Positions 661 to 50,000 of a stretch of DNA of 64,000 nt are shown piece by piece; within the stretch, counting starts at the first letter, position 1, and every line of letters starts with the position of its first letter. The translations under genes were made by a program, and so were the position numbers. The DNA is taken from assembly GCA_025642065.1 (NCBI GenBank), contig JAODUP010000410.1, forward strand, positions 1 to 64,000, read 5' to 3'. This stretch comes from Paralvinella palmiformis (taxonomy: Eukaryota; Annelida; Polychaeta; Terebellida; Alvinellidae). A model generated the notes under the pieces. That model worked only from the letters and a program-made list of their open reading frames with translations, ran no database searches and was not told the origin of the DNA.

Positions 661-2892
661 TATTGATATATAAAACCCCATAACAATACACAACCTTGGT
701 GAAGTGCAAATCTCAAAATGGAAGTAAAGTCCAAATTTTCAGCTGGTATTAATACTATTTATTTCTAGTAATACACATTATTTTAAAATACATGGAAACC
801 GAAGTAATATTTTCCTTTTTTTAAATTAAAATAAATATTCACTCGAAAACGTAACCTTATTTTAGTTGTATATAATGAAATAATCATTTAGTTACCTACA
901 CATATAAGTTTATTTACAAACCAAATGTGAAATAATTTGGAAAGAAATCAGAATCAGATCAACGCCGCACGGATCGCGCGAATAACGATTTTACCGAAGA
1001 TGAGGTAAGCTACTTCTTAAAACCCATTTGTCGATTTATCATAAAGCTGATGTGAATATAACAAACACTTTAATTGGTATATTCGCGCTGTATCCCAAGC
1101 TTTATTGAACTCAATAAATTTCAGATTCCTATTATTGGCGAGAAAACAGGAGGTGAGATGAATTATGTGTTACTTCGTTTCATTCAAGCACCGGGTTTTA
1201 ATGCTCTATTTTTTTTCCTGTGTCAAGACAAATGAAAGAAAGACTACATATAGTTTAGACATATTTGCAAATCTCTTTGTTAAGTGTTTAAACATATTTG
1301 AATTTATCTGCTTTCCAGGGAGAAAACTGTTTTGTTTGTGTACTTCTGTCTTTTATTTTAATATTTTATAAAAGTAGCCTCATCGCCAAAGTGTTGCCGT
1401 TCCTCCTACCCCCCCCCCCCACACACACATCCTAACCTGATCACATTCGCACTTACCGATATTATAATGATTCAAATACAGGTCCAACTCAATTATCCGA
1501 AATTTCTTGGCGATACGAAATGGCCCAATAATCAAGTTTTCAGATAATCGAATAATTCACCATATAGTCGGGTGTGGTGCAGTATTATCAACACATATAT
1601 TGTCAATAGACCATGGCCGACTAGTCTAGAAAAAATGTCGGATATTTACATTTCTGTCCTTAGCAAATTATGAATTGTGACATCAAATGGTTATTGCGTT
1701 GTATTTAATAAACAATTTTCATACTTCTAATTGAATAATTCTATTTACATATATTTACCTAATTATTACAGACGATGTAATTTATAAATAACCTCATATA
1801 TAATAATATTAATAATCTTAATTTAGACGTTACTAGATCATCCAATAACACAGACAGATGCTTTTTATTTGAACTGTATATTGACGAATATATAGACATG
1901 ACTCAAATTAAGAAATTTGCCGTTGACCAGTACGAAGTAAGTATCTTCATTTGGTAACAAATTCGGTATATCTCTTTATCTGTAGCCAATTATTGTTAGA
2001 AGAAATGATTGAATTGACCAAGTATTAATTTAATCTAATTGACTAATTTCAGGAATTGCTGTCGTTAATGAAGTTGTCTCCTGATACCACAAAACCCTCT
2101 ACTACGACTGATAAATCTATTGATTTCAGCTACATTGACGTATGTAAAGCTTTTATTTCGCTTCTTATAAACGTAGATGTATCATAATATCAGTAATAAA
2201 TAACATTATTAATTGTACTGATAGCGGTAGAAGTATACCACTACTGCCAATATTGCTACTACTATTACTATTATTAATTCTACTACTACTACTACTACTA
2301 CTACTGCTGCTGCTATTACTACTGTATTTCTACTACTGCAAGAACTACTCCTAACAATATAATATTAACAGCATCAAAACGTAGAGACTAATCTAATTTT
2401 TTAAGACTGTCACAACTAGAATACCTTATTCTAATAAATGTTTGGTTGTCTACTTCGTTGTAGGGTTATCAGGAGAAAAATACTTATGTTGCTTTAGAAG
2501 GTAAGAATACATGATCAATCGGCTCTGGATGTTTACCGCATTTCTTTAATCACTCACTCATTCACTCACTCATCTATTCACTCACTAACTCGCTCACCCA
2601 TAACCGTGTAATACGTATAATATATATATATATTTATGCGAACAACCAAATTTATTCGTTGTTTTTTCCCCCGATGATGATGATGATGAATCCCTCATAG
2701 CTTTTTTAACATGATAATAACATTGTACTTTAGGTGTACCAGCTCAAAATATGAATGATATCTGGAAGATGGTATGGCGTTTTGGGAGTAACAGAGTGAT
2801 AATGTTGACGGATCTTTTGGGAGAAAAGAAGGTAACACATGGGAAGTTATGTTTGTCTCCGTTATCACTTCATCCTCCCAACCTCCAACAGC

Positions 2893-2928
<36 letters not shown>

Positions 2929-3421
2929 CCCAAACTCTCTAGTATACTTGTACCAGTGTTAAGTACACACGGTATATTTAACACGATTTTAAAGATTATT
3001 GGCAACCAACTGATTAATAGGTCAGTACTTCAACCAGGATTGAAGTTCAATAAAATAAAGATGATATTGATTCAGAGTTTCCGAGCATAAACACGGCTCT
3101 TTAGTATTCTGGATCAATATTGTTGAATAGCAAAATTTCAGACAAACAGCTTTTTGAAAGAATGATAATCAATTTCGTTCATCATGCTTGTGTACTGGGT
3201 GACCCTACCCTTTCGTTTTGGCTTGAATGTATTGAGCGTCTGTTATTTCGACGTCTATTGAAAAGGTTTATTTTTTTCAGCTCCGCAATCAGTATTTATC
3301 ATACGAATGTTGTGATCCGGAACAAAATGACGAAATCGCTGCGGAATTAATATCCGTATCAGAATACGCTGACTACATCAAGAGGAAACTGTGCCTTAAA
3401 CAAAGAGTAAAGTTTTATACG

Positions 3422-3479: not shown

Positions 3480-3481
<2 letters not shown>

Positions 3482-4622: not shown

Positions 4623-4771
4623 GGACAGTCTCGAATAGTCAACCAATTTATATTTACGTCTTGGAGAGATTTGGGAAGACCAGTTTACGGCTCATTTACT
4701 TTAATCGAATTTCTGAGGAGAGTCCATGCATTGGACAACATCAGTTCAGGGCCACTAATAGTATACAGCGA
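4623..4771 (+). pseudogene. D1 exon with WPD loop and Ser-for-Cys, left copy
   Basis: Encodes SRIVNQFIFTSWRDLGRP and GPLIVYS in frame between a cttttcag-type acceptor (tattttcag) and a gtaggt donor. Reading through the donor gives a TAG, but this is intron sequence. It is followed by a long (CA)n run at 4786-4870 and then inserted LINEs. Part of the decayed left gene. Confidence 0.75.
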
Positions 4772-4782
4772 GTAGGTTGGAA

Positions 4783-4785
<3 letters not shown>

Positions 4786-4868
<83 letters not shown>

Positions 4869-4870
4869 AC
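4786..4870 (+). repeat. (CA)n microsatellite
   Basis: About 40 CA units just after the D1 donor site. The right-arm counterpart is a short interrupted TG run near 43070-43170. Confidence 0.9.
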
Positions 4871-4885
4871 GCACATCCTTGATAT

Positions 4886-6197
4886 TTCACCTAAAGTCGT
4901 ATCCAAACGCTGGAATATTCACTTAAACTGTAATCAGTTGTCTAATGTATGTCAGTCTGCCTACAACCACTTTCACTTTACATAAACCGCTCTATTGAAA
5001 GTTAACAACGACATAACATTAAACATGGACTCAACATCGCACAACACCCACTTGAATCCACTCATTCGTAATAAATAGGTTTCAATCGATAAAAATAAGA
5101 AACTCTTTTTCAATCGCAGTTCCCAAGTTTTGAGATATTCCTCAAGGCTCTGTTCTTGGATCGCTGCTGTTTACTCTGTTTGCCAAGCCACTAAGCTCTC
5201 TTATTCACAGCTACAAATGTGACCATCATTTATATGCAGATCACACCCAATTACGCACATCTTTATCTACAGCAGACACTGATCTTTCCCTTAAACAATT
5301 TGGTGACTGTCTCGCTCGTATCACTGTTTGGATGACAAACAATAGACTTAGATTCAATGCAAATAAAACAGATTTCATTATTATAGGCACATGCAGACAA
5401 CGCAGCAAACGTACTCGTTTGTTTTTCTATGTCCATCCTGAATCATAGCATCACACCATCGTACACTGTACATAATCTTGTTTTAGAAAACACGTTTCTC
5501 TGATATGTCGCTGCTGCTTCTACCATATTTGTGACTTTCGCCGTATTCATCGCTAAGTTTCTTTTTCAGTCACCAAAAAACCATCGCTACAAGACTCATT
5601 GTTAGTAGGCTTGATTACCGCAGCTCTCCTTATAACATCGTATCTAAATATGTTGCAAAACCTCAGTGTATTCAGAACTACTAAGGTAGGGTTGTCACAT
5701 GGTGTACTCGGCTTTCTGACTTCATTGTTTCCATGATCAATCTCGCATCATTTTCAAACTCTGTGCCATAGCCTATCAGTACGCAATATCCAAGTTTGGA
5801 TTTTGTACCTATTTGAAAGAAGCAGATCAAACTCTTTCTTCCGGAGAACCTTCGTATCTATTTCCAATGCTTTATCCTGGACCAAGCCCATAGTAGTCCG
5901 TTCATCTGGTTTTCACTGGCTGTCTGTTCTCAGGGTTTAAACTCATGCTGGCACTAGTGCTTTTCCAGTTGTTGTCACTACTCTTTGGAACTCAATCTCT
6001 GAACATGTTTCTTTCCGTCACCATTTGGAAACTCATCTTTTCAGACCCGCTTATCCATCCTAACTTTCCACTGCATCCGATCATTTGTTGATGAATTTTG
6101 CATCGTACTTGGAATATAAGATAGCCAAACCCCTGTACTATGTGCGTCACTGAGCTTGGGGGATGGTGGGGTTATAGAAGTTTATTATTATTATTAT
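4886..6197 (+). mobile_element. L2/CR1-like LINE fragment (RT), left-arm insertion
   Basis: Non-LTR retrotransposon remnant, 5' truncated and broken by stops and frameshifts. Visible RT pieces: HLNCNQLSNVCQSAYNHFHF near 4917, then DIPQGSVLGSLLFTLFAKPL near 5140 and HHLYAD near 5230 (catalytic block with Asp pair partly lost), and the DYRRIRR-to-SRLDY thumb region near 5530-5620. Ends in a (TTA)n tail near 6180-6197. Same family as 29690-31620. Confidence 0.7.
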
Positions 6198-6299
6198 ATA
6201 CTAAAATATATATTCCCCCAACGCTTTAAATTGATAGGGAGTTTATTCTGATTAAATGATATTCCATTTATTTTTCATTATTCTCTGTATCGAAAATAT

Positions 6300-8670
6300 T
6301 GATTTAATAAGGCTTAGCATTCCAGACAAATTCAAATAACAATTTATTTATTCGCTCTAGCATGCCATGTGACGGAGAAGGGAGTGCATATGACAAATAT
6401 ATTAATTGAGATATTAGAAATGTATTAATGTATGTGACCTTTCCATATAGTGTCAAATATCTCCTACACCATATTTTCAATATTCCTAACTTTGATATAT
6501 TTTGTTTAATAAGGTCTTCTGTTCTATACATATTACCATATCAAAACTATTTATCGGGCCTTGTATCCATTAAAGGTTACATTCAGGTACCGCCCTGTTG
6601 TTATTATGTTTGATTCTTCCTAGAGACACGATTTAACTTTATAATAGTCAACTTTGAGTCCTGATAGTTTTGCAAATATCTTAAAAACTTCAATTATTTC
6701 GCTCAAAGCATTTTCCAAATAGTGAATGGAAAATAACGATGTCAGCAGCGTACTGACTGAGTCGAATTAACCTATTACCAATATTTATGCTATGTATTGA
6801 TAATTTCTGTCTCTATATACAAGCTAGCAATTCATCACAAATAATGAATATATATTTGGTGAGAGTGGGCATCCTTGTCTGGATCCCCGCGTGAGTCGAA
6901 CAATGATTGACGATCACCCGTTATTAGATACTTGTGTCGTGATATCTTTAGAAAATACATTAACCCATTTCATTAAAAAAGAACCAAAGTTAAATTTATT
7001 TAGAAAATACTCTAACAATTCCTATTATTGAAGGTTTTCTTCTTCAAAATCCACTGACAATAGGAGTCATGCTTCGTTATCCTGATCTGAGTGATCCGTG
7101 ATATTTACCATTCTAATTATATTTTCTTCGATGTAGCGGTTCATCAAAAAGCAGGTTCGGTCAGAATCTGTTAGCTTAGGATCCATTGAACAAATGCGTT
7201 TCGCTACGGCCGCCTTTATGGGTAGTTTCTATCCTAATCCCGTAATGTAATAGGAAGCCAGTTTTTTTTAAATTAACAATGTGTCTTTATCCTTTTTTTG
7301 TTTGGCATTGAAGTTATTAGACCTTCCCGTTGGGTGGTAAATAATTTATTATTTATATAATTGAAATTCGGAGTATTTGCTATGTAACAGTTGACGTATT
7401 TCGAAAATAATTAGTTAAACCGTGCCGTGAAACCATCGCTGGCAGGGCTCTTATTGTTACTACACGATTTAAGGACTTCCAAAATTTCATTTTCGCTTAA
7501 CATGCCATCAAATGATTGTTGTTAATTATTTCTCAATGTCAGTAAAATAATATCATCTAGTTCTGTAACATCTGGAGCAATATTATGAGTTGTGGTGTAT
7601 ATTATGGAATAAAAGGAATGCGATTCTTTTATTATATTGTTCCCTCCATAGTAACTGTTATAATTGATAGACAAAGACGCGTATTGGTTTTATTATTGAA
7701 ATTACGCTTCTCAAGGATCAAGAAAAATATAGACGATTTCTCACCGTTTTCTTGCCAATCACATTTTGACCGCATGACAGTTCCTTTTATTTGATCTTGT
7801 AATATTTCATCCATATCCTGTTTTATTAGCTTTATGTTTTCTTCTGTATTATTTGATGTATTTTGTTGCAACTGCTTTTCCAGTCTCATCATTCGTCTAT
7901 TACGTGCTAAAGTGTATTGTTTTTACTTCGATTTTTGCGAGTTGAACACGAAATAGTATCTGCCTTAATCGAAGTTTTATGGCTTCCCATCCTTCAATTA
8001 TTAGCGTCTCTTGTATTGGTCGTTTTACATTCAGGACATAATCATAGATTATATGGATGTTGTTTTCTCCAGAGATCTACTAAATCTGCCGCTTCTATGT
8101 ACGAAACAATTAAAAATTTCATATTTTGGTTAGAATGTACAGTAGCTGCGCCTTTTTTAATCTTTAATATCATTTAGAACACAAACATCTCCTTCTATCA
8201 TTCTATCCTCATTATCTGATGTTTCTATGACATCAGTAATTCCTCTCACAAAATCTGCGTGATAATTATTTATTGGGAGCATAAATATTAACGATAGTCA
8301 TTCATCGATCAGACGCAGTCAGATCTATCATAACGTGTCGGCCTAAATTATCTGAAATAGCATTATGACGTATGTGGCTGACTCTTGTCAACATGCACAC
8401 CCCTCTTGCATTTTGCTGCCCGTGACTAAAATATAAGTCACCTTGCCATTGGTCAGACCACTGTTTTTCATCATTAGGAGTGCTATGTGTCATTTGTAAT
8501 AGGATTACAGCTATCTTATGGCTTATAATTAGGCAGTTAACAAGTTTTAATCGTTTGTCCTGGGAACGGAGTCCCCGGACATGTAAGGATATGACACAGA
8601 GGCTAGTAGCCTTAGAATTCCAAGCAAATATTCCGTGCCAAGATATTAGACCCATAAGAAACGATTACTT
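6300..8670 (-). mobile_element. L1-Tx1-like LINE ORF2 (endonuclease and RT), inverted 5' part
   Basis: Read on minus: endonuclease start at 8655-8302 (VISLHVRGLRSQDKR, then DLYFSHGQQNARGV), the IKGTVMRSKCDWQENGEKS block at 7892-7632, RT RGSRQGCPLSPNIYSLFV near 6890, and the post-RT LTLYGKVTYINTFLISQ...FVWNAKP block at 6531-6304. The EN motif order and LTLYGK block are typical of the L1/Tx1 clade. Several stops; inactive. The C-terminal part lies downstream in the opposite orientation (10840-11470). Confidence 0.7.
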
Positions 8671-9594
8671 TAATTTTATTCACACATAGTTGTAAATATT
8701 TTGTTGTGCTTATATAAGTTGTGCTTATTATGTGGATCTGACTATGTTTTGAAGAGTTTTGTTCTCCTCTCTTAAAGATGCATATCTTTGGAGACCGTTT
8801 CTATCATGTTAGTGTGATGTGTTAGCCAAAAGCCAGTGCACCACTCACCCAATGTCGATAAATAATACCCTTGATTATAGTTTATGCATAATCATTCAGG
8901 TTACTATTTGAATATACATATTATTAGGTTATACACAAGGTGTTATACTAGTTACATACACATAATCATGGAGGAATATTAGCTACAAAACATATTCATG
9001 GGAATACTAGTTACCTATTCATGTGGGATTACTAATTCCATATACATAACCGTAAGGGATTACCAAGTAAATATACCTATTCATGGGAAATTCTAAATAT
9101 ATTTATATACTCCAGGAGAAGTTCTATTTACATGTATATATTAATCAGGGATTACTAATTGCATATAGATAACCATAATTTATAACTACTCACATATCAA
9201 TTGTTCTTACAATCAATTACAATCTCCTTACCACCACTTTCCAGTCCTTTGTTTCTGCACTACAGCATCATCACTATCCAGTATATCTTGGGCTCTGTTC
9301 GCCCCCATGCATATTACAACCATCAGATGCTTATAGTATTGCTCCATACAGTTATGACAGGTGTCCCCAACAACAGACATGTTAGGGTTGTGATTCGATA
9401 ACGGGGAGTTCACAATCCAGAAGAACAAAGTATCACCTTCTATGCACGTAGAGAGTTTAACGGATTTAACTGGTCTGCTATAGCATCAATGTTACTCACA
9501 GTATATGCGTTCCGTCGAATAATCAGCTTGTCATCAGTTAGTTATGTAACTCCTTTATATTCATTCAGTGATTTAGCTTTCTTGAAAATTGGGA

Positions 9595-10110
9595 CTAACC
9601 TTCTACGTCTGTTTCTGACCTCTGTTGGGTAATGTTGCGCAAAGAAGATTTTATGTTTATGGGTGACCCATAATGTGCTTTCCATACTCGACTACGCCCC
9701 TTTAGGCACTTAAAACTCCTCATGATTGTTCTGTTTGTACGACCTTTAGAGCCAACACGATGGATGTTGTGAACTGCCAGAACATTATCTAGTTTGAGGA
9801 TATTGCTCAGGTTCTCTGGTTTCACATTCAGCCTCTTCAATTCCACGACTTAACAAATCCATTCTCCTCCTTTACTCCTTATGGTGTAGCAATACTTCAT
9901 TTAATTTCCTATGATCTTCTCAGCATGTTCTACACGAGTTGAAGATGACTGTTGGTTTCTTCGAATTGGCTTATAATAATTGTGTTTGTTGCGCATTGAG
10001 AGATCACAGCCGAAACATTTCTGTACATTCCATTTTGTGAAATTCTAGTAATTGTTTCGACATGGACTAATAGCTTCTGTGCCCTATCTGGTGCTGTTTT
10101 GACTAGTTTT
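9595..10110 (-). mobile_element. L1-like ORF1 remnant
   Basis: Reads NILKLDNVLAVHNIHRVGSK and INIKSSLRNITQQR, matching the RRM/CTD region of L1 ORF1 (an HRVG block, then kR). It lies upstream of the ORF2 endonuclease on the same strand, as in an L1-type element. The region to 10840 probably includes more ORF1 and 5' UTR, with nothing firmly readable. Confidence 0.5.
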
Positions 10111-10839
10111 AGTTGCGCTAACTAATCCTATAATTCTTGATCTTCCTCCTGTTTAGATAATTTTGTGAACATTTCAAGTGTTGCTGACACCTCGGATCTG
10201 GCACATATTTAAATCACCCATTTCTTTGATATTTTATGCTTAATTCACTGACAGTGTCTTATTGTTTTCGATGCAGGCAGTGAACAAGTGAATGCACTTT
10301 GTGCCCTGTGTGTCTGACTGAGTGGATTGTCACGGTTGAACAATTTTTGTTCTCGGCCACTAGCCAGCATACACAATGGCTGAATAACCACACATTAAAA
10401 TTTCCGGATATGCGTGAATGTTGTCCAAATATTACATTCACGCTAGCCAGTTATATCTAAACAAAATATCACCATTAGCTTATACGGTTATTCACACTAT
10501 CTGTATTGCATATATTTTGCTTCTAAACTTCAACGAAAAGGCACTGTTTAGCAAATAATAATCTTCTCACAAAAACATGACTTCTCCTGTCAGATCACTG
10601 TAGTATGATTCACATGTAAGAATAAACAATAAGCTTATTTACATATCTTAACTCAATGATAAAAACATAGCTTGCGGTCATCAATTATTTGAAATATAAC
10701 AAGTTATATATTGAGTCTGAATGGCTTTCAGCTGAAATATTGTATACATAAACATTTCGTGACTTATTACAGTATACAGTGTCAACTATTCAATGCCGAT
10801 GTAAACTTGAGATAAAGAAAAAAACTATGCCGCAATATT

Positions 10840-11470
10840 CTCATATGTTTAGGTCAATCTGCATTAATTTGATGATAAATCCAACAGCAGCATAATACCT
10901 AATAGAGCTAGAAAATGGCAAAAATGGTTTCCAGGGAGTCTTCAACTGGGAGAATGGCAAAATAATTTCAATTGGATATATAGCTCTGAAATGTACAAAT
11001 ATCGGATAGTACAGGTTCAAATATTGCATTACATTACAGCAACAAGGAAAAAACACGTTTTAGTGGAACCTAGTAGAAAGTGATATTTGTACATTCTGTA
11101 ATAAACAAATTGAAACACTTCTACATTTATTGCTGGAATGTGAAGTTTTTGAATTGTTTTGAATTAACAATGGTTATATAAGAGGATAAATATACTGATT
11201 GATCCAAATGTATTTAATTATAGGATTCCAAGATGAAATTTGTATTATGTTCAGTGCAGGGTATTTACACGCCAAAAATATGTAGGCAGTTGTTCTTATG
11301 AAACAAAATTCAAGATCTAAAGGCTTTAAAAATGTATTACGGAGTTTGTATTAGTAGAAAAGTCTATTGCAACCACCGAATTTAGAAATATATGGACTAG
11401 TATTTTGCCCAGTTAATACATAATTTAATGTTAACATGTAATTTAGTAAGGAGGAGCAGAAACGTTTCTA
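10840..11470 (+). mobile_element. L1-Tx1-like LINE C-terminal part, sense orientation
   Basis: Two frames read NWIYSSEMYKYRIVQVQILH and CTFCNKQIETLLHLLLEC, matching the L1/Tx1 ORF2 C-terminus with its CX2C..E..HLL..C zinc-finger-like motif. It is the 3' piece missing from the minus-strand element at 6300-8670. Confidence 0.55.
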
Positions 11471-11934
11471 TAATGACCTAATTTTATTGAACACATTTAT
11501 GTTGTATGTGCGGTTTGTAATGTTTTATTATTTGTGTATTTAAATTAACTGTCTGATACCTTATTTGAAGTTTTACTCGCTTGATTTTGCCACCACGCTC
11601 GAACACAGAAATACCGGATATCAACTGCTTTATTACTATTTTCAACCACTCGACAACATACAGCAATGCCGTTACAACGAACGCTAAATGCAGCGTACAA
11701 TACATTACACGGTGACGGTTGTATGGCTTTCAATATGAATTTAAAACAATATTATTATTATAAATTGTAATCGTTTATCTTGTACTTAAACAGTCCTACA
11801 CGATTGATATGATTGCCAACGATAACATGCTACAACCAAAAATAAAAAAGCTATCATAATTATGTTTTATTTTATTTTATTATACTCTACCAGAAGCTTG
11901 CATGAGTTATTAATAATTGTTTTTATCATTAAAG

Positions 11935-12070
11935 CTCCGGTATTAATCGCACGACAACATTCATTGCCCTCGACATATTGCTGAAAGAAATAACTTCTGA
12001 ACGGATTATTGACGTATTTGGATGTGTACAAAAAATACAACAACAAAGGCCATACATGATGCACACTTTG
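11935..12070 (+). pseudogene. D1 exon completing the signature motif, left copy
   Basis: Encodes SGINRTTTFIALD and RIIDVFGCVQKIQQQ, nearly identical to the right-arm exon. Acceptor attaaag, donor gtatga. The antisense open frame over this exon is a shadow. The next exon (12259-12370) carries the 1-nt insertion that truncates the frame. Confidence 0.75.
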
Positions 12071-12392
12071 GTATGAATGTATTTATTATTGTTGCTCTTA
12101 TTATTATTATTATTAGTATTAATAATAGTAGTATTTTGTAATAATTAGCCCTATTATATTTACTACTTTAATATTGTGCACTATAAAAATTAGAACTGTG
12201 TGTGTGTTTGTATGCGCCCGTATGCTCGTGTATGTTACAATATTTTGATCTTTAACAGGGCCAGCATACATTTTTATACGAAGCTCTCCTAGATGAAATA
12301 TGTACTAAAGGCTATATATATAGACCACACCCCAGAAGTTATAGATCAACCATATAAAGGAGAGTTTATGGTATACTGAACTAATATTATCC

Positions 12393-12394
<2 letters not shown>

Positions 12395-12476
<82 letters not shown>

Positions 12477-15086: not shown

Positions 15087-15689
15087 ATATATATTGCCCC
15101 ACTCACGCACGTACGCACACACACATATATGCACGCACATCCACGCACACTGACAGATTTGTTGTATGAAATGATTTTCGATTTGTTTTAAATTTTAAAA
15201 TTATTTTCATATGTACATCGATCTTCATCAGATGGTTTCATCTCCGTTGATGTAAGCGAATTATTTATAAACATTTAATCAAATTAATCATCTTAAGTGA
15301 ATTTAGTTTCTAAATTTATCGATTTGTATTTTCTGAAATAAATTTCACAATTCAGCATAATAACAAAAGATGACTTTGTTTACGATATATTTTATCCTGT
15401 TGTTTTAGAGTTTTAGAATGCATGATTATTATTTGATAACGAAAATGTCAGATGAGATCGAAACCTTCTGGAAATGTGTGTATGAGTTAAATGTATCTTG
15501 ATACTCAATGAAAAATACCAGGTAAGAATGGGTTTTGTTTATAATTATGATTGAATGAAGATATTAAAATATCTCGTTTGTAGCAGAGATTAATTATCAT
15601 TTAGGACAAAATTCTTAATATGAAGACAATGTCTTTTTTTGTCATAAATACATTACGTTAGACAAGATTAGGAATAATTTATGTTTTTT

Positions 15690-15727: not shown

Positions 15728-16252
15728 TCTATGTGTTTTTGTGCGTGTATATCTGTCTGTATGTGAGTCTTAATTACTTAACGATGGCTGTATTCCACAA
15801 TTTACTTTGTGTGTGTGTGTGTGTCAAATACTTCAACCTGACAATCTCATCGTCGTTTCTCATTTAAAACTCTGTTCGTCTTTATTATCATAAACATTCC
15901 TCAGTGTTATATTTCTAGTTTATTAATCATATATCCATTCCATAATTTACTTTAAGGTATTAACTTCTTTTTTGTTTCTTTAATTTCTTAAAGGAACTTC
16001 ATTCATCATCGAACTCCTGGTCTGATGACGAGCAGAGACAGTTTAAATCAATAAAAGTTAGACGTAAACGTCGTTTACGTGATGTATCTGAGTTTATTGA
16101 ATGTAGTATATTTTTAGTTGAATCAACAAAAAAGGTTATCGTTATATTTTATTATAATTGAGCATGTGCTATTTATTTCATGTATCATCCAATTAATCCT
16201 GCAGCCGTTTGGAGGATCCGGAGTCTAATAAGATAATTTTCTCTTGTTTCAG

Positions 16253-16889
16253 ACAAAGGTACTAAAGAAGTCTTCATCAAAGCCAATTGGAGTCTTTGTT
16301 TACCATTTTTCGTTTCAATCAGTTGATTGGCAAGATTTTAGCACAAAAAGTCGTCTAGTGCTCTTGGCTAAACAGTTCCGTGATTTCCAGTTGGAACTTT
16401 GCCAAAAGCGAAAATTAAGACCTCACCAAATAATTGTTCAATGCAGGTGAGTGACTATGCATGACACACACACACACACACACACACACATGGAAGCACA
16501 CGCGCGGTCGTACGCACGTACATGCACACACATTGGTAAACAAACAGAGCACACGATCGGTGATCACATCTGGGCTACTCCTTATAGAAACAGCCCACAA
16601 ACAGAAATATCACTGGGAATGAAATTCTCATTTGTGTATGTCTGTCTTTCTGTGTTTGTGCATGTGGGAGTGCGTTTGTTTGTGTATGTTGGTCTCATTG
16701 GGCTCAGTATTATTTTGTTAACCTAATTTTACCACAATTACTTTACCCTGCAGAGATTGTCTGACTCAGTGCGCAAAATTCTGTGGAATCATTCACATGA
16801 TAGAGAATGTTACTGAAAACAATGAATTCAATGCTCTTTTAGCGGCTAGATGTGTTTCTCGAAGAATTAAGAAACTGTTTAAACATCGC
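16253..16889 (+). pseudogene. D2 C-terminal exons, left copy
   Basis: Exons 16253-16446 and 16754-16889 encode KRKLRPHQIIVQC joined to RDCLTQCAKFCGIIHM. The Cys is kept and the signature Arg is Gln. By eye about a fifth of bases differ from the right copy here, far more than in neighbouring introns. Followed by terminal exon 17122-17178, VDYYYFYEYGLIYIRNGF and TGA. Confidence 0.65.
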
Positions 16890-17078: not shown

Positions 17079-17849
17079 GTGTTTCTGTGTATGTATTTAT
17101 ATGGCATTGTTTTAATTTTAGGTTGACTATTACTATTTTTATGAGTATGGACTTATATACATAAGAAACGGCTTTTGAAAGGAGTTTTAATATTAAAGGA
17201 TAATACTCACTCCATTTTCTGTTTTTTAAATTCTATTCTCGTACCTCTCAGACGTCATATTATTTTGTATCTTTGTTAATAACTTAATCTGAACAATTTT
17301 TCTGCTTATATTTTCCACATCCTTTTAGCAAATAAAAACAATATATGTTTCATCATTCTTTACATATTTTAATAATGTTTTGTTATCCTGTTGGAATTAT
17401 TCTGAAGTAATGCTACTTAGGTACTCTAAATTGCAGGATTTCCTATATTACGGCAAGTCCTTAATTACGGCCATAAGTCAGTAATTCTGCCGATAATCTT
17501 TATTCAGGTGTGTTCACCTTTAAATATAATAATATACTGAGATTTAAGTAATATATCAAGCTGATTATTATATTATTCAAAACAGATCAAATAACAATTA
17601 CACTAAAACATTACATATAATTAAATATGATAAACAAATCAAACTAGGTAACATCTAAAATAAATAATATATAACAAGTATATGAAAACGGCAGGAAAGA
17701 TTTATTAGAATATACAATGGCAATCTCTGAAGATTTAAATAGATTATATTTTCTAAATTAAATTATTTTTTAAACAATCCAATGATTCATTAATAAGAAA
17801 TTTCTACCGTTTAATATATATGTAATAATAGTCAACATATATAGTTTAC

Positions 17850-36237: not shown

Positions 36238-36367
36238 TCAATATTGAAACTTCTGTCGAAGGCCGCTTCTTATGTATGTAAGTCCATAGTGAAAAAAATA
36301 GTAATAATCAACCTAAAAATTGAAATAAAAACAATTACACGCACGCACACACACGCACACACACGCA

Positions 36368-36413: not shown

Positions 36414-38927
36414 GTTTCAGATAAATGTTTTACAGGTGTCATTGTAAAGTGACATCGCGAAAAAGAAAATTAATTTGGAAAACGGTTTTAGTAATTTATC
36501 GTTGGTAGTCTTTAATGATTCTAACGATCTGTTAATTATGGTGTGTATTGTTCTTAGCCTGTGTTTGAAGCTACCGAATGAGATAAATCGTCGTGTTTCG
36601 AGGCTTTTAAAGATAGGCACCATAGCTGTTTAAACTAACTAAAATAATTGAATATACAATCTACGATAAACAACAACAAAACTATGTTACCACAATTACT
36701 TAAAGAGAGAATTTGTTTGTTTTAGAAACACCTAGGTGTTGATTGTCTACTGATAACGTTAATGGTAACTTACCCCATATTTAAAGAGTTTTTGTATTCT
36801 TCTCGAAACACATCTAGCCGCTAGAAGAGTATTGAATTCGTGATTTTCATCAATATTCTCTATCATGTGAATGATTCCACAGAATATCGCGCTCTTGGTC
36901 AATTCGCCTCTACAAGGGTAAAGGAATTGTAAGTAAACTTAGGTTTAATAATAAACACACATACACACGAACAAACACACTCGAACACACATACACAGAC
37001 GCAAACAGACAAATACAAATCAGACTTTCATTCCCAGTAATGTCTCTGTTTGTGAACTGTTTCTGTAAGGAGTTCCCTGGTGTGATCCATCTGTTTACAC
37101 GTGTGTGTGTGTGTGCGTGCGCGCGCACGTCTCTGTGTCTCTGTGCGGGCAGTCATATAGTCACCTGCATTGAATGATCAGTTGGTGAGGTCTTAATTCC
37201 CTCCTTTCGCAAAGTTCAAACTCGAAATTACGGAATATTGTAGCCAAGAGGACTAGATTGTATTTGATGTTATTACGTTGCCAGTTGATTGATTCAAATG
37301 AAAAATAGTAAACAAAGACTTCAATTGACTTTGATGAAGACTTCTTTTGAACCTTTGTTTGAAACAAGAGAAAACTGTCTGATGAGATTCCGGATCCACA
37401 AAACGGCTGCATGATTAATTTGATGATACACGAAATAAATAGCACATGCTCAATTATAATAAAATATAACGATAACCTTTTTTGTTGATTCAACTAAAAA
37501 TATACTACATTCAATAAACTCAGATACATCACGTAAACGACGTTTACGTCTAACTTTGATTGATTTAAACTGTCTCTGCTCGTCATCAGACCAGGAGTTC
37601 GATGATGAATGAAGTTCCTTTAAGAAATTAAAGAAACAAAAAAGAAGTTAATACCTTAAAGTAAATTATGGAATGGATATATGATTAATAAACTAGAAAT
37701 ATAACACTGAGGAATGTTTATGATAATAAAGACGAACTGAGTTTGAAATGAGAAACGACGATGAGATTGTCAGGTTGAAGTATTTGACACACACACATGC
37801 ACACACGCGCACACACACACGCATGCACACACACACACACACACATATATATACATACATATATATATAGGTTCGTGTTTTCTTTTTACCAACATTGTTT
37901 GATATAAAGGGTTAGTGACGAGTAGGTCATAGCATTTATTGGATTTGTATGTTTATGAGGTATTTGACCCTCCAGCAAATATCACAAGGCATATTATGCT
38001 GCGGTTGAGAAAGTTCCGTTTTCTATGCGTGGATACCATATTTCCCGGCCCCTGCATTCAAGAAAAGTTGATCTAGAGCTGTATAATCCATGTACTATTT
38101 GCATCTTTGGAGGCACGCCGTTTAAGTGTTCGGTTTGGTTATCCAGCATTTAAATGACTGTAACAGGCACAGTACGCTCTTAAAGCATTATAAGTACTCC
38201 TGACTCAGGAATAGAAACACTGCATCTCATCTCGAGCGGTGGCATTGGACACGACTCGCGCGGTTGGTGTGTTTTTATGACCACTTTAGTTGCATATAAA
38301 ATTCACCTTGGTTGTATGTGGGAATAGAATTATCTTTCTTAGGTCCAGTTATGTCCAGTTTGTACTATGAGATTCAAAATTAGCTCTAATCTGCTTGTCA
38401 TAAATAACATATAAGAACTACAATAGCAGACGTTAGGTCAGGTTTGAAAATGATAGCATAGTTCAAACAGTACGGAAGCTATGACGCGCTAATACGGTCT
38501 ACTTCAGAGCAGATGTCAGTCTTTTAATAGCAATTAAGATAAACAGTTTTAATAGTAGTCGCTTCATGACGCCTGCCCGTTGTAAAAACTGATCTTTGAA
38601 GACAGTGACAATTGGGTTATATGGTTTATATAGTATTGCTTTGAAGAAAGATACAGCAATTATAAAATAGCTATACATAGGGCTGCTTAGATAATTAATC
38701 TAAACATTCTCACTACTGCCGTGATCTGACTTGGGTGTTCTACTCCCAAACTCCACGGCTGTAGGTGATTCGCTTTTTGTTTTTGCTTGGGGGCTTAGGG
38801 ACTGGTGAGACATTACAATGTCTCAGCAAGAAAAGTCGCCCCTCTGGATTCAGTCCCCTGAAGAAACGTCCAGAGTTTGAATTCACGGTTCGAGATTCTC
38901 TGTGCCTGTGCCTTATTATACACAGCT

Positions 38928-39013: not shown

Positions 39014-39724
39014 ATATATATATATATATTATTCGTTTCAAGCTTAAAATGCCTAACCTTGACTAACATAAAGTATTTATAAAAAGCCATTCTCTTCATA
39101 ATGCGATGGATTTTTTCTAAATGATAATTAATCTCTGCTACAAACGAGACATTTTAGTATCTTCTTTCAATCATAATTATAAACAAAACCCATTCTTACC
39201 TGGTATTTTTCATTGAGTATCAAGATACATTTAACTCGTTCATCATACACACATTTCCAGAAGGTTTCGATCTCATCTGACATGGTCGTTATCAAATAAT
39301 AATCATGCATTCTAAAACTCTAAAACAACAGGATAAAATATATCGTAAACAAAGTCATCTTTTGTTATTATGCTGAAGTGTGAACTTTGTTTCGGAAAAT
39401 AGAAATCGATAAATTTAGAAACTAAATTCACTTAAGATGATTAATTTGATTAAATGTTTAGAAATAATCCTCTTACATCAACGGAGATGAAACCATCTGA
39501 TGAAGATCGATGTACAAACGATATGAAAATAATTGAAAACAAAATGGAATTGTTTTATTTCATACAACAAATCTGTCAGCGTTTGTGGGTGTGTGTGTAA
39601 GTGTGTGTTTATATGTTTTTGCCTATGTATGTATGTGTGTGGGGAGTGCGTGTGTGAGTGCGTGGGCGTGTTTGTGCGTGTGGCAATGAAGATAATGCGA
39701 ATAAGATAAATGGATAGGAAATAG

Positions 39725-41501: not shown

Positions 41502-43438
41502 CACACACATATTGGATCATATTTAATTATGCTATACCATAAACTCTCCTTTATATGGTTGATCTACAACTCTGGGGTGTGGTCTATAAATATAGTCTTT
41601 AGTACAAATTTTATCGAGCAGAGCTTCGTATAAAAAGGTATGCTGGTTCTGTTGAAAGATAAAAAATACGGTAACATACACGGCACGGGTACAAAGACAC
41701 CGAGTTCTGATCTTTATAAGGCCCAGTAATAAATTAGTAATAATAATAGGAGTAAGAATAAAAATACTACTAATAACAATAATAACAATAGTGCATATAC
41801 ATTCTTTTAACAAGTATATCCATACCAAAGTGTGCATCATGTATGGCCCTTGTTGGTGTATTTTACGTACACATCCAAATACGTCAATAATCCGCTCAGA
41901 AGTTATTTCTTTCAGCAATATGTCGAGGGCAATAAATGTTGTCGTGCGATTAATACCGGAGCTTTAATGATAAAAACAATTATTAATAACTCATGCAAGC
42001 TTCTGGTAGAGTATAAGAAAGTAAAATAAAACATAATTATGATAGCTATTTTATTTTTGGTTGTAACATGTTATCGTTGGCAATCATATCAATTGTGTAG
42101 GACTGTTCAGGTAAAAGGTAAACAAGTGCAAGGTATCAAACAACTTTAGGCGAAATAGTAAGTATTATCTTTCGACAGAACGCCAATATATAGGACAAAG
42201 ATAGTGATGACACAGGATTGCACACACAGAGGTGTCATTCGTGATCAATGTGGCTTATTGGAGAACGTGGACGACTGGAGACCTTCGGAATGTTTATAAT
42301 CGGGCTGGATGAAGTACTGATTTGCCATTGAAGTTTCGTAATAAAAACAAAACGGTCACCTGTTTTATAATTGACGAATGAATCAATCGGTTTGCTATTA
42401 TAAAATAAAATTATATTCATCAACAAAGTGTAGACGTTGTATAAAATTCGCTTTCGTAATATGGTGCGTCGGCAGTCAACACTCGATTATTGGAATATTG
42501 GGCTATCGAAAAATTGGGCTATCGAAAAATTGGGCTATCGAAAAACTGAGCTATCGAAAACATTGAGCTGTCAGAATATTGGGCTTTCTGAAAACAGAAA
42601 ACTCCGTTCAGTTTATTCCCGCCAGTCACTTATCTACAGCTTAATTGTTCGTATTATAATATAATATAATATAATATAATATAATATAACATAACATAAC
42701 ATAACATAACATAAATAACATAACATAACATAACATAACATAACATAACATAACATAACATAACATAACATAATATAATATAATATAATATAATATAAAA
42801 TAAATCGTCAAAACAGGTAACAGTGGTTTAAGGATCTGACAATAGTATTATCCCTGACTCTAACTGGATTCAACCCAGCATACACTTCACCTCCTAAGGG
42901 AGCATTCAACGCATGCCGCCATAATAGCCGCACAACATTAATCAGACACATAGCCATCATGTCTTGTCGGGTTCTCATTTCTGGCTAAGAGAACCAGTCG
43001 TCAACATCACAGCATTGCAGCAGTACAACTAATTGTACCATTACGACTAGACTTTAAGCGAGCCCGTGCTTGCATATGTGTGTGTGTTTGCTTGTATGTG
43101 TGCTTGTATGTGTGTATATGTGTGCACGCGTGTGTGTGTGCATGGATGCATCCGTGCGTCTGTGTGTGTGATTCCAACCTACTCGCTGTATACTATTAGT
43201 GGCCCTGAGCTGATGTTGTCCAATGCATGGACTCTCCTCAGAAATTCGATTAAAGTAAATGAGCCGTAAACTGGTCTTCCCAAATCTCTCCAAGACGTAA
43301 ATATAAATTGGTTGACTATTAGAGACTGTCCCTGATAAATAGAAATAGGTACTAGTTCTGTTATGATTATCTCTCTCTATCTCTCTCTCTCTCTCAGGCA
43401 CGCACGCACGCATGCACGAACACACGCACGCACGCACG

Positions 43439-43479: not shown

Positions 43480-43980
43480 CGTGTCAAGCTTAACTCTTTC
43501 TTTAAGGCACAGTTTCCTCTTGATGTAGTCAGCGTATTCTGATACGGATATTATTTCCGCAGTGATTCCGTCATTTTGGTCCTGATCACAAGATTCGTAT
43601 GATAAATACTGATTGCGGAGCTGAAAAGAATTACCTTTTCAAGAGAAGTCGAAATGACAGACACTCAATATTTCTAATGAAAATAATGATCTTTCTTTAA
43701 GAAAGAAAATACAATAATCTGAGCACCAGTTTGCTAGTCGTCAACCTGAAACGTTTATTGTCTGAAATTGTGTCTTTGTATTATTGGAGTTTAAGAAGAT
43801 GAAGTGATAACGGAAAAAATACATAACTTCCCATCTGTTACCTTCTTTTCTCCCAAAAGATCCGTCAACATTATTACTCTGTTACTCCTAAAACGCAATG
43901 CCATCTTCCAGACATCATTCATATGTTTAGGTGGTACACCTAAAGTACAATGTTATTATCACATTTAGCCGTTATGAAGG

Positions 43981-44018: not shown

Positions 44019-47000
44019 GCGGGAAAAAAAGAAGAGATTTTCCTGGGTGTGAATAAGTATAATATTATGTGTATTTCTTTTTTATCTTTAAGTAATATTA
44101 GAATATTAGAGGGACACGGTAATGAGTGGGTGTGTCAGGTAGTGAGTGAACTGCAGTAAATTTGGAGAGCAGATGATCATATCTTCTTTCTTACCTTCTA
44201 AGGCAACAAAAACCTTTTTCTCGCGGTAACCCTACAGCGAAGTAGAAAACCAAGTTATCGAAATGCAAACGAATGTTATCAGGTTATAATACTCTGAGAT
44301 CGTTAAAATAACCTTTATTAGAGCAGGGTATTTTAGTAGTAACTCCGTCCTGGCCGGGCCCAAGCCTGGATGGAAAAGGACGAGGAATGAGTGTGTGGCC
44401 AGCACCCCATCGTCGTAACAAACCCTACTCGCTACGGGAAAGTCGACACGAGAATTTACGGGGAACACTTGCATGGAAGAGGAAGGGTCTCCATCACAGG
44501 ACATAGCACCCTTGTTTCGACCAGATACAGTACTGTGGGAACATGGAATGTGAGATCCATGCACCATATAGGAAAGACGGTGCGAGTAGCAGCGAAAATA
44601 ACCACCTACAAGCTTGCACTTCTAGGGATCAGTGAGATAAGATGGACCCAGACAGGACAAAGAAGAATGTGCCTTTGCCGCTCGTGTTCGACTGTTGTTT
44701 ACTGGTGATTTCTGATTCTTCAAAAAGAGGCTGTGCCAAACAAGCGACAGCCTGGGGATACTCCCCGAACTACAAGCAATCAACAAAGACGAATATCCAC
44801 GGGAGAGCTGTTGTTTTTCTCTGGATATTGGGAATATGATGCCCCCACATAGAAGGAGTAACATTCATTTTATCAACAGTGCCGCAGGGGGAATTTATAG
44901 GATCGGGAATGCATAGACAGCGAATCACAGAAACAGAAAATCAAGATGAACATCATTCAGTGCTAAGGACCACCGAATGATAGTGATGAAGAAACTAAAG
45001 ATGAATCCTACAGCAGGCTACAAAATAGCCTAGACAAGTGCAGAGAAGCTCTGACTATTCTCATGGGAGATTGGAAGCGATAATAAGGGATGCGAAGAAC
45101 TTATGGGGCAGCCATGGTGTAGGAGAGATGAACGAGAACGGACAGAGATTTGCGGACACATGTGCAATAAGTAACACTACCATTGGGGGTAGCAAGTTTA
45201 CACATAGAATGATACACAAGACCACATGGGTGTCACCTGATCATTTGACAGAGAACCAGATGTATCACATTTGCATAGGAAAGAGATTTAAAGGTCATCT
45301 GAAGCTGTGATAGTGAAGAGGGGTGCAGTGTAGGCATCTGACCAACACCTACTGATTTCTAGACTGAATCTGAAGTTGAAGAAAAAATGGATGATGACAG
45401 CAACAAACAGACGAAAGTGCAGCGTCGGCCTCTTGAAAGATCTACAGATAAGAGAGGAATACCCGATGAACATTGGTAATAAAGTTCAAGTGTTACTGGA
45501 GTATTATGAAGAAGAACCAGACCTGAACATCCTGTAACAGAACATCAAACAGATACTGACAGCATATTGCCAATAAGTCACTGGCCTGATGAAGCCGTAA
45601 GAGAAAGATTGGATTACAGCAAAAAGTTGACGCAGGATCGAGGTGCGAAAGGAGAAGAATCAGAAATCACCAGTAAACAACAGTCGAACACGAGCGGCAA
45701 AGGAACATGCACAGGAATAGCACACAGCGAGGCAAAGAAGAGTGTAACACTGGACAAATGAAAATACATCGACAGTCTGGGAGAAGTGATAGAACAGGCT
45801 GCAGGCAGCGGAAACACGAGACAGCTGTATGACACTACCATGATACTAGTAGGTAAGTATAGCAAGCCAAAATGACCAGTTAAAGACAAGCAAGGGAGGA
45901 ACATCAAGAAAACTGTGCAACAACTCAACAGATGGACTAAACAGATATACAACCAGGAGTAGTGGACCTACCAATCAAACGTGACAAGCCTACCAAGGAA
46001 GAAAACGGGAGGACCATAAAGCACACGAAAAACATTAAAACAGCTAGTTCGGAAGACGTCCCATCAGAAGCACTCTAGACATACATCATAGACACTTTTG
46101 TGGATCTATTGTACCACCTCTTTAAAATATTTTGGAAAAAGAATAGGTGCCATCAGAATCGAGAGAGCGATACCTGATACAACTCCCCAATAAAGGAGAC
46201 CTCAGCAACTGTTCCAACAACAGAGGAATCACACTTCTGTTAGTGCCCGGGAAAGTCTTCAACGGAATTATCTACTACAACATTTAGGGATACCAACTAA
46301 ACTGGTTATATTGATTAAGTACAGCTACTAAGAAATATAAGCTTCAGAGTAATCCAAGGATGACAACTAACCAAGCGTTTCAAAGTGAAGACTGGAGTTA
46401 GTCAAGGTTTCTTGTTGTCCCAATCCCTCTTCCTTCTGATCATCGACTGGATTATGAAGACATGCACAAAGCAGAGAAAACAATGGAATCCAGCGGAAAC
46501 TAAAGATGCAACTTGAAGACCTGGACTTTGCCAACGATCTGGCACTGTTGTCCCACAGCCATCAACAGATGCAGGATAAGATGACTGAACTGGCAGTCAT
46601 CTCTTCAAGAGTGGGCATAGATGTACACAAAGGCAAGACAAAAGTCCTAAAGGTAAATGCAGCCAGCTCAGAGTCTGTCAAACTGGAAGGGGATGAAATT
46701 GAACAGGTAGCGACCTTCACGAACATGGGTAGTATCATTGACAAGCATTGTGGTACGGAAGCAGTTGTCAAAGCGAGGATTGGCAAGGCGAGAGGAGCAT
46801 CTATGCACCTATTTAACTTTAACGTGGACTCCGTACTAATATATGGAGCAGAGACATGGAGGACAACTAACACCACCACTGATAAAGGCCACAAACCATC
46901 AGTAATAGTAACTTGTGGGACAGAACACACCAACGGAATGCTGGAGATGAGATCCACAAGGAAGAAGGACATGTAGATGTTGAAGAAACATGTGGAGAAG

Positions 47001-50000
47001 GGAATAATCAGACAGACACTAAGATGACAGGTTACAGCTGGAGGGAGCTCGAAATAAAATCCCATGATAGAAGACTCTGGAAAACTGTGGTCAACGGCCT
47101 ATGTTCCAGTAGAGACGATGGACATAAGAAGAAGAATTATAGTTATGACACTATATACAAATTAGATTAATCTCTACGCTATACCGTTGTTAATATTATA
47201 TTATTGCTACAATTATTACAATTATTACTTATAAGTAGTAATAGTTGTAGTAGTAGTAGTAGTAACAGTAATAGTAATAGTAATAGTAGTAGTAGTTGTT
47301 GTAGTAGTAACAGTAGTAGTAATAACAGTAATAGTAGTAGTAGTAGTAGTAGTAATAACAGTAATAATAGTAGTAATAGTAGTAGTAGTTGTAGTAGTAG
47401 TAACAGTAGTAGTAATAACAGTAATAATAGTAGTAATAGTAGTAGTAGTTGTTGTAGTAGTAACATGGGCAGTAGTGGTATAATTCTACCTCTATCAGTA
47501 CAATTAATAATGTTATTTATTACTGATATTATGATACATCTACGTTTATAAGAAGCGAAATAAAAGCTTTACATACGTCAATGTAGCTGAAATCAATAGA
47601 TTTATCAGTCGTAGTAGAGGGTTTTGTGGTATCAGGAGACAACTTCATTAACGACAGCAATTCCTGAAATTAGTCAATTAGATTAAATTAATACTTGGTC
47701 AATTCAATCATTTCTTCTAACAATAATTGGCTACAGATAAAGAGATATACCGAATTTGTTACTAAATGAAGATACTTACTTCGTACTGGTCAACGGCAAA
47801 TTTCTTAATTTGAGTCATGTCTATATATTCGTCAATATACGGTTCAAATAAAAAGCATCTGTCTTCGTTACTGGATGACTTAATAACGTCTAAATAAAGG
47901 TTGTTAATATTATTATATATGAGGTTATTTATAAATTATATTGTCTGTAATAATTAGGTAAATATATGTAAATAGAATTGTTCTATTAGAAGTATGAAAA
48001 TTGTTTATTAAATACAACGCAATAACCATTTGATCTCACAATTCATAATTTGCTAAGGACAGAAATGTAAATATCCGACATTTTTTCTAGACTAGGCTGC
48101 CATGGTCTATTGACAATATATGTGTTGATAATACTGCACCACACCCGACTATATGGTGAATTATTCGATTATCTGAAAACTTGATTATTGGGCCATTTCG
48201 TGTCGCGAATGTGACCAGGTGGAGAGGTGCGGTGGGGGGGGGGGTGGGGGCGAGGGCCAGCACTTTGGCGATGAGGCTACTTTTACCAAATATTAAAATA
48301 AAAGACAGAAGTACACAAACAAAAAGTGTTCTCCCTGGAAAGCAACTATTAGCAGATAAGTTCAAATATGTTTAAACACTTAACAAAGAGATTTGCAAAT
48401 ATGTCTAAACTATACGTAGTCTTTCTTTCATTTGTCTTGACACACGAAATAAAATACAGCATTAAAACCCGGTGCTTGAATAAAACGAAGTAACACATAA
48501 CGGCATAAAAATTAAACCAAATTACCCGTAAGGGAATATTTAAATAGAAAAATGAGTTGAAGTGTGTATTTTAAAGAAAATATGTTCATCTCACCTCCTG
48601 TTTTCACGCCAATAACAGGAATCTGAAATTCATTGAGTTCAATAAAGCTTGGGATACAGCGCGAATATTCCAATTAAAGTATTTGTTCTAATCACATCAG
48701 CTTTATGATAAACCGACAAAATGGGTTTTAAGTTACTTACCCCATCTTCGGTCGATTCATTATTCGTGGGTTCCGTGCCGCTTTGATCTGCTTCTGATTT
48801 CGCTCCAAATGATTTGGCATTTGGTTTGTAAATAAACTTATATGTGTAGGTACCTAAATAATGATATGGTTATATACGACTAAGATAACACTACACATCT
48901 ACACGTGCCTTGTTATATGTCTACTAAATGTGTTTTCTGTGAACATTGATATTAATAAATAACTAGAAAAATAATACTGTAGTTTCCACATATTTTCAAG
49001 TGATTTATATAACTAGATTTAAATAGTAATAATATTAGCTGAAACAGGTAATACCAGAAGCTTGGAAGAATAGGAAAAGACAAATTTTGAGGAATTACTT
49101 TCAATTTGGAGTTTGCACTTCACCAAGGTTGTGTATCGTTATGCGATTGTTTATATTAATATTCTTTTTAAAACCTGTCCCTCATCTATGACGAGTACTA
49201 ACGTTATTGACGTCGAGATAGGATGTCGTTGTTATACGTATCACGGAGATTTTAGTGTGATTAGCTGACTGGGATTTATTTTAACAAAACAATTTTACGG
49301 ACGAGAAAATAAAATAGATCTTAAAATATCCTCGTTCACTTCAGGATGTGGAAAGAAAAATGGAAATCAGCTAATAATTAAATGTCTTCTGCAAAATACC
49401 TATTTTTCAAGCGTATGATGTGCATAAATAAGGGAAAAAGTAGACAATCATGTGAAGAAAGACCCATGTTATGAGACTTGGTAATTAGATCGATGTGTCT
49501 AGAGATTGCTAGGATTATTGGCGGGTACCAGATTTGTTATTAGAAACATGAAATTGTCCCCAGTCATAATGTGACATGTTGTGCATGATGTCACTAAATA
49601 TTTAATAAGCGGACTAACCATTTATTTCAAGGTACAGATTTATGAGAAAGAAATAATGATGCTTAAAATATTTATCACCTCATGTAAATCTACATCAGTT
49701 AATCGAAAAGGATGGCCAGCCTAGGGTATTCATTAATGACCATATCTGCTGCTCAAATGGCTTCTGGTTAGCCTTAATATAGAGAAACTACGCTTTTCTT
49801 CCGCAGATGTGACAGGCAGAGTACATACTAATTCCAGTAAAATTATAATGTTCGGAAAGGTAAATCGGCACCGTCAGACTGCCTGAACCACACACTGAAC
49901 CGTCTGGATACCTCGCTATCTAATTACGTCGGAGGTGGCATGTCGTCATGCCATGATTCAAATTGTTTTTCGGGGGGAGGCATCCATAGTTTGACAATTA

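Follow-up and report, generated by a model that had tools for sequence, protein, structure and literature searches.

A small serine-bearing clade of putative non-catalytic receptor tyrosine phosphatases in the vent annelid Paralvinella palmiformis

Paralvinella palmiformis is an alvinellid annelid named among deep-sea vent invertebrates (PMC12403961). The stretch analyzed here, called the window, comprises positions 1-64000 of contig C1943 in a genome assembly of 594 Mb and 2597 contigs. It contains an inverted duplication whose arms (650-18359 and 32857-49172) are separated by a 14.5 kb spacer, and each arm carries one copy of a gene resembling a receptor-type protein tyrosine phosphatase (PTP), designated copy 1 (plus strand) and copy 2 (minus strand). 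The alignable parts of the two arms are 73-94% identical, peaking at 94% between 1507-2349 and 47369-48209. A genome search with exon E6, which encodes the first half of the catalytic P-loop, gave 31 matches, three of them at 98-100% identity: the two window copies and C2509:319739-319885. The following exon, E7, was searched separately and also gave 31 matches, with identity above 55% in the same three loci only. The locus on C2509, copy 3, has the same gene layout over approximately 313.1 to 326.6 kb. Its alignable parts match the window at up to 94% over the E6 stretch but at 66-91% elsewhere, which identifies copy 3 as a paralogue; the C2509 locus was accordingly rejected as an allele on a second haplotype. 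An earlier note on this DNA, which had placed the gene in a molluscan setting, did not have the host right; because the host is an annelid, molluscan families are not the nearest comparison. Among the literature titles and abstract beginnings screened, none concerned this gene, and the term "tyrosine phosphatase" is absent from the main text of the Alvinella pompejana genome paper (PMC12403961).

Eight exons of the first, membrane-proximal phosphatase domain (D1; E1 to E8) were placed in each window copy with GT-AG borders and with phases that match except at the frameshifted E8 of copy 1 (Table 1), and GT-AG borders can be found for eight of eight D1 exons in all three copies. In each copy, exons b to f of a second phosphatase domain (D2) follow on the same strand, and the two sets are predicted to be joined in a tandem receptor. 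The spliced D1 of copy 2 matches PF00102 at 6.9e-33 (114.7 bits against a curated cut-off of 20.9); thus, the resemblance is not due to chance. At E-values up to 1, PF00102 was the sole Pfam family found for D1, with no dual-specificity domain of the MAP-kinase-phosphatase type. D1 also matches solved receptor PTPs in the PDB, the best being PTPRE (1.2e-62 over the two domains of PTPRE).

In both window copies, E6 ends in GTA TAC AGC GA before the donor gtaggt, and E7 begins after aaag with C TCC GGT, giving VYS-D-SGINRT across a phase-2 intron. The P-loop described in the earlier note, VYSDSGINRT spanning an intron and recurring in the second window copy (exons 43331-43183 and 41961-41826, minus strand), is therefore upheld by GT-AG splicing, and copy 3 reads VYS-E-SGINRT. 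Relative to the active form VHCSAGVGRT, the window copies have Tyr in place of His, Ser of Cys, Asp of Ser, Ser of Ala, Ile of Val, and Asn of the second Gly. The HCX5R signature with its Cys nucleophile is replaced by YSX5R in three copies. The P-loop Arg and first Gly (SG) are retained, while the next Gly (RTG) is Thr, so that the earlier note was correct about the Ser and only half right in calling the P-loop glycines altered. Its reading of the Q-loop Gln as His does not hold: HMMER sets the Q of ...HTLNQHTFLYEAL on the catalytic Q of PTPRE ...QTDMQYTFIYQAL, and the His occupies the following, usually Tyr, position. In copy 3 the Q-loop reads LSQYKFLYEAL, likewise with Gln. The general-acid Asp is also retained, in W-R-D, where the Pro of WPD is lost as it is in paralogues.

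The phosphotyrosine (pTyr)-recognition loop is missing. E2 goes directly from KPSTTTDKSIDF to SYIDGY (KPSTTTDKSIDFSYID to GY), and a scan of the E1-E4 spans of all three copies for a KNRY-like motif returned none. By comparison, D1-type KNRY or KNRF lies upstream of E6 in six W-x-D genes of the genome (C809, C728, C1010, C1429, C211, and C2257) among 29 pieces scanned, where most of the other pieces reach only 1.5 kb upstream and a missing KNR match says little. D2 of copy 2 matches PF00102 at 2.1e-9 (37.8 bits, same cut-off). Its P-loop is degenerate in all copies, with the Cys kept and the Arg changed to Lys or Gln (QC-R-DGLTKCAIF in copy 3). Given these residue losses in D1 and D2, both PTP domains are expected to be inactive.

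Classical PTP catalysis requires the Cys. As judged from sequence, D1 is a pseudophosphatase, namely a PTP-family domain that has lost a catalytic residue, and good support for a loss of classical catalysis comes from the absent nucleophile, the absent pTyr loop, and the P-loop Gly to Asn change. It is highly improbable that the receptor still catalyzes through an unannotated Cys exon or an unusual chemistry. At 7.2 kb, the intron between E6 and E7 in copy 1 could conceal an exon, and the earlier note had named transcripts with a Cys-supplying exon at this place as what would overturn its reading. However, profiles of E6 and E7 detected nothing similar in this intron of any of the three copies (best match, E = 0.24), and the change from H-C to Y-S is identical in three places.

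Cys to Ser is the classical substrate-trapping mutation, and D1 could be imagined as a natural trap that retains phosphotyrosine binding and keeps active paralogues away from the bound residue. The P-loop Arg, the first Gly, the W-x-D Asp, and the Q-loop Gln are all retained, and the P-loop stretch ranks among the most strongly conserved when the copies are compared, although the homogenized exon described below contributes half of it. A precedent is offered by D1 of PTPRU, which is reported to bind and protect substrates without catalysis (PMC7320164). However, none of the three copies has the pocket-forming pTyr-recognition loop, Asn takes the place of the second P-loop Gly, and the residue directly after the Ser is acidic (D/E); the trap is very unlikely.

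The Ser form appears to be rare. Across the fetched loci of the genome, a subset of its PF00102 matches, 51 distinct E6 places were surveyed, and 49 of these reach the nucleophile residue: 46 have Cys and three have Ser. WPD is altered in 26 of the 46 Cys places (12 WED, 5 WKD, 4 WTD, 3 WTE, 1 WVD, and 1 WCD); two further pattern reads, WLT and WYT, are actually WPD, and one place ends before the motif. Cys-bearing mollusc PTPs with WSD or WLD also occur, for example in Lottia, Tegillarca, Saccostrea, Ostrea, and Crassostrea. Since Pro is lost in Cys-bearing PTPs, its loss says little about activity, and W-x-D without Pro, being found in many Cys-bearing invertebrate receptor PTPs, should not be taken as a sign of a dead enzyme. 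WRD, which is present as the earlier note stated, was accordingly set aside as the mark of inactivity that the note had seen in it. The lost Pro is probably older than the Ser clade. A receptor PTP expansion with WED, WKD, WTD, or WTE together with Cys was observed on C1010, C1429, C809, C1751, C2388, C371, C229, C2418, and other contigs.

Among the best 120 of 154 homologous proteins, the nucleophile is Cys in 122 domain matches and Gly in two oyster proteins. The P-loop pattern left 46 of 171 domain matches in these proteins unrecognized, many of them D2 domains or ends like CHC, and the single "S" in the set (P0069) is a misplaced match. The two oyster proteins, P0107 (Ostrea edulis) and P0115 (Saccostrea echinata), carry Gly at the P-loop Cys and fall on a tree branch apart from the Ser clade. 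A protein search for Ser forms gave one match, from Mya arenaria (E 1.7e-19), which carries Cys, and a second returned a metagenome fragment short of the nucleophile and a fungal match (E 2.4e-3). These searches reach relatives sharing 5-residue words within length limits, and other Ser forms may exist beyond that range. As far as surveyed, the Ser form is private to one small clade. The tree unites the three Ser copies with 100/100 support, at the end of a long stem (0.7), inside the W-x-D set of the genome. The fork of that set has a support of 87/86 and is drawn open, so the nesting of the Ser clade is moderate. The tree omits eight loci with E6 but without a usable E7, duplicates, truncated matches, and loci set aside (among them C1931, C2084, and C1956).

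The age of the loss must be read in the light of exchange between the copies. In E6, pairs with copy 3 show 0 to 1 silent differences in approximately 35 silent sites, whereas dS over the rest of D1 is 0.25 and 0.28 for these pairs; copies 1 and 2 show a smaller difference (dS 0.03 in E6 versus 0.09 elsewhere in D1). Along the exon itself the copies are close to 100% identical; identity is 79-95% in the 40 preceding bases and 55-80% immediately downstream. The Ser exon has probably been homogenized between copies, and a likely gene conversion tract of approximately 190 bp covers 4623-4771, 43331-43183, and C2509:319739-319887. Unlike purifying selection at the protein level, gene conversion holds silent sites as well, and the shared Ser alone is therefore no proof of common descent: the Ser itself could have spread by conversion or have been inherited. 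E7, in contrast, is not homogenized (dS of 0.28-0.30 versus copy 3), and S-G-I-N-R-T-T-T is common to all copies. Since the unhomogenized E7 shares SGINRTTT and all copies are without the pTyr loop, a normal active site was probably lost before there were three copies, and the presence of the same change in copy 3, on another contig, supports an origin before the copies split. The proposal in the earlier note that the protein was inactive before the duplication is thus probably right, though not on the strength of the Ser by which it was argued. More generally, shared lesions can come from gene conversion rather than descent.

Whether the copies encode a maintained protein or are simply decaying turns on their reading frames. 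In D1 read in register there is no in-frame stop in copy 2 as a whole, in copy 1 up to the E8 frameshift, or in copy 3 with a placeholder at the E5-E6 junction, and exons D2b to D2f of copy 2 are likewise without a frameshift or in-frame stop. A neutral simulation of copy 2 D1 at K = 0.14 gave a mean of 4.2 stops, with zero stops in 1.6% of runs. A protein from a JGI metagenome, P0121, reads through the end of E7, the intron, and E8 of copy 2 with one amino-acid difference (VVD/VID) in the E8 part; the sequence and open frame of copy 2 E7-E8 are therefore supported by another data source. The source of P0121 is a metagenome contig of 1207 bases that holds copy 2 E7-intron-E8 nearly unchanged and is apparently animal DNA. 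Insertions and deletions (indels) are rarer in exons than in introns. With low-complexity sequence removed, copies 2 and 3 differ by 6 gaps in 1482 exon bases (0.0040) versus 51 in 2769 intron bases (0.0184), and copies 2 and 1 by 3 in 1623 (0.0018) versus 63 in 3491 (0.0180). Without the filter, and with margins of 12 bases added to the exons, there are 12 gaps in 1803 exon bases (0.0067) versus 62 in 3074 intron bases (0.0202) for copies 2 and 3, and 12 in 1980 (0.0061) versus 88 in 4585 (0.0192) for copies 2 and 1, an approximately threefold contrast. Mismatches between copies 2 and 1 are also fewer in exons (0.091) than in introns (0.135).

Other observations weigh on the other side. Copy 1 carries two frameshifts, which went unmentioned in the earlier note (E8, 112 nt versus 111; D2b, 105 nt versus 112), and copy 3 carries two as well, E5 being 1 nt short at its donor in an A run and D2c measuring 142 nt versus 141; E5 of copy 3 also begins 12 nt later. 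In copy 2, the D2d acceptor AG of copies 1 and 3 is lost (AA). With copy 1 ended at its frameshift and gapped codons skipped, dN/dS is 1.00 (0.70-1.58) for copies 2 and 3, 1.09 (0.69-1.84) for copies 1 and 3, and 0.67 (0.37-1.41) for copies 1 and 2, which indicates no clear constraint at the protein level. For E7 alone, dN/dS is 0.39-0.48 with wide intervals. Exon mismatch between copies 2 and 3 (0.181) shows no deficit relative to alignable introns (0.168). At the divergence of copies 1 and 2, the stop test is powerless, as zero stops occur in 37% of runs at K = 0.03 and in 19% at K = 0.05. Exon borders were picked to fit GT-AG, so intactness is partly by construction, and conversion between exons could likewise have reduced the number of indels there. 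Neither a first D2 exon nor a transmembrane exon was located for copy 2, and searches among annotated proteins of approximately 276-878 and 114-362 amino acids returned none encoded at these loci.

These points suit the view that all three copies are unprocessed pseudogenes, in which the Ser, the Asn, and the lost pTyr loop reflect ordinary decay and E6 is conserved through gene conversion; the dN/dS near 1 in pairs with copy 3 and the nearly identical silent sites of E6 fit it. It accounts less well for exon indels that are 4 to 10 times rarer than intron indels in complex sequence (about 3 times unfiltered), for the lack of in-frame stops in all three copies of D1 once these are kept in register, for GT-AG borders at all eight D1 exons of three copies, and for the fully open D1 of copy 2. 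We regard it as a real possibility, though on balance doubtful. The explanation that we hold to be somewhat probable is a non-catalytic receptor PTP clade, with copy 2 open where it is recognized and copies 1 and 3 decaying. We infer from the indel and stop patterns that selection acted on the frame during some of the interval after the split between the copies and that decay followed in at least two of them.

In this proposed history of a non-catalytic clade, the family would have emerged from W-x-D receptor phosphatases that expanded locally and whose other members keep Cys. Its D1 would have been left without the pTyr loop or the second P-loop Gly, and the change from Cys to Ser would have removed the nucleophile; the Arg of the P-loop, the W-x-D Asp, and the Gln of the Q-loop would have stayed. 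For a while after the copies separated, the reading frame would have been preserved, and copies 1 and 3 would now be decaying. The protein, if made, would act without chemistry, as a binding domain or scaffold or as an inactive partner of active paralogues, and a non-catalytic binding role, of the sort reported for PTPRK D2 and for PTPRU (PMC9640194, PMC7320164), is likeliest if the receptor is made. The DNA shows the sequence, candidate splice sites, the residues that are missing, the frameshifts, and the scarcity of indels in exons; that activity is lost, that the gene is expressed, that the protein binds partners, and that the frame was selected are inferences. A bolder version, in which a doubly dead clade is kept as working non-catalytic receptors and the Ser exon is actively homogenized across contigs, is unlikely. 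If it were true, a receptor without an active-site thiol in D1 would be insensitive to habitat sulphide and oxidants, and it could hold or shield partners of the Cys-bearing paralogues.

Table 1. Exons and candidate ectodomain pieces of the two window copies.
Copy	Feature	Position	Strand	Remark
1	Juxtamembrane exon Ea	893..1004	+	tentative, start approximate; homologous to 48852-48741 (-), donor gtaagc
1	Small exon Eb	1125..1152	+	AG/GT sites, phase fits E1
1	E1, D1 start	1827..1936	+	
1	E2	2053..2139	+	straight into SYID, without KNRY pTyr loop
1	E3	2464..2500	+	
1	E4	2734..2831	+	
1	E5	3281..3406	+	
1	E6, WRD and first P-loop half (VYS + ga)	4623..4771	+	Ser codon 4767-4769
1	E7, second P-loop half SGINRTTTFIA	11935..12070	+	
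1	E8, Q-loop GQHTF	12259..12370	+	frameshifted, early stop; 112 nt versus 111 in copies 2, 3
1	D2b	15417..15521	+	frameshifted, 7 nt shorter than in copies 2, 3
1	D2c	15994..16134	+	
1	D2d, ending IVQC	16253..16446	+	
1	D2e, D2 P-loop QC-R-DCLTQCAKF	16754..16889	+	Cys kept; Arg and glycines lost
1	D2f, last exon	17122..17178	+	with stop
2	Juxtamembrane exon Ea	48741..48852	-	tentative, start approximate
2	Eb	48595..48622	-	
2	E1	47780..47889	-	
2	E2	47577..47663	-	without pTyr loop
2	E3	44195..44231	-	
2	E4	43842..43939	-	
2	E5	43495..43620	-	
2	E6, WRD and VYS	43183..43331	-	Ser codon 43187-43185
2	E7, SGINRTTTFIA	41826..41961	-	last 31 residues also in metagenome protein P0121
2	E8, Q-loop NQHTF	41538..41648	-	Gln kept, frame open
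2	D2b	39200..39311	-	open
2	D2c	37477..37617	-	open
2	D2d	37165..37358	-	open; AG acceptor of copies 1, 3 is AA here; next AG 6 nt on, in frame
2	D2e, D2 P-loop QC-R-GELTKSAIF	36774..36909	-	Cys kept, Arg to Lys
2	D2f, last exon	36238..36312	-	with stop
2	Probable extracellular piece	61618..61746	-	matches ectodomain of P. palmiformis P0002, tblastn E ~1e-5
2	Possible further ectodomain piece IGRYVYFSRLPQGQ	60492..60659	-	by eye, no statistical match

Upstream of copy 2, a third piece resembling the P0002 ectodomain lies at approximately 60870-60793 (minus strand), identified by resemblance and not by a statistical match. Each arm also holds open reading frames (ORFs) on the strand opposite to its phosphatase copy, at 18141-17770 (minus) and 33076-34956 (plus). 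By eye these resemble part of a galactose-binding (F5/8-C-like) domain with a transmembrane segment and may represent a separate receptor fragment or remnant; an 82-amino-acid piece is without a Pfam match. ORFs resembling the reverse transcriptase or endonuclease of LINEs were noted by eye at 58114-59802 (minus), 13400-14205 (minus), 29641-31614 (plus), and 5134-5448 (plus). One of these sits between E6 and E7 of copy 1, where it may partly account for an intron of 7.2 kb compared with 1.2 kb in copy 2.

Inactive PTP domains are already well described, and the worm clade adds a case in a new place. To our knowledge, only a few receptor PTPs have an inactive D1, and work on them has centred on vertebrates, as with PTPRU. 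An annelid Ser case among Cys-bearing paralogues would allow a before-and-after comparison of catalysis loss in one genome. The closest reference is the set of P. palmiformis W-x-D paralogues (for example P0003, P0005, and P0006; C1751, C2388, and C371), among which the Ser clade falls in the tree and with which it shares the W-x-D motif and, at the loci inspected, separate E6 and E7 exons meeting inside the P-loop. The paralogues differ in keeping the Cys, nearly always as HC-x5-R, and KNRY or KNRF was seen in six.

Among better-known systems, vertebrate PTPRU is similar in having an inactive membrane-proximal D1 with an altered pTyr loop and P-loop, but it is reported to keep the Cys and to have WPE, whereas the worm copies have Ser and lack the pTyr loop entirely (PMC7320164). 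MK-STYX (STYXL1) shows a comparable change from H-C to an aromatic residue followed by Ser, given as Phe-Ser there (PMC8269279) and Tyr-Ser here; it is of the MAP-kinase-phosphatase type and not a receptor, so this is a resemblance and not membership. The oyster proteins P0107 and P0115 have also lost the P-loop Cys in another lophotrochozoan PTP, though to Gly rather than Ser, with WPD and GIGRT kept and on a separate tree branch. Finally, vertebrate receptor PTP D2 domains likewise retain the PTP family domain without catalysis; one example, D2 of PTPRK, is reported to recruit Afadin (PMC9640194). PTPRK D2 sits beside an active D1, whereas the D1 of the worm receptors is expected to be dead too.

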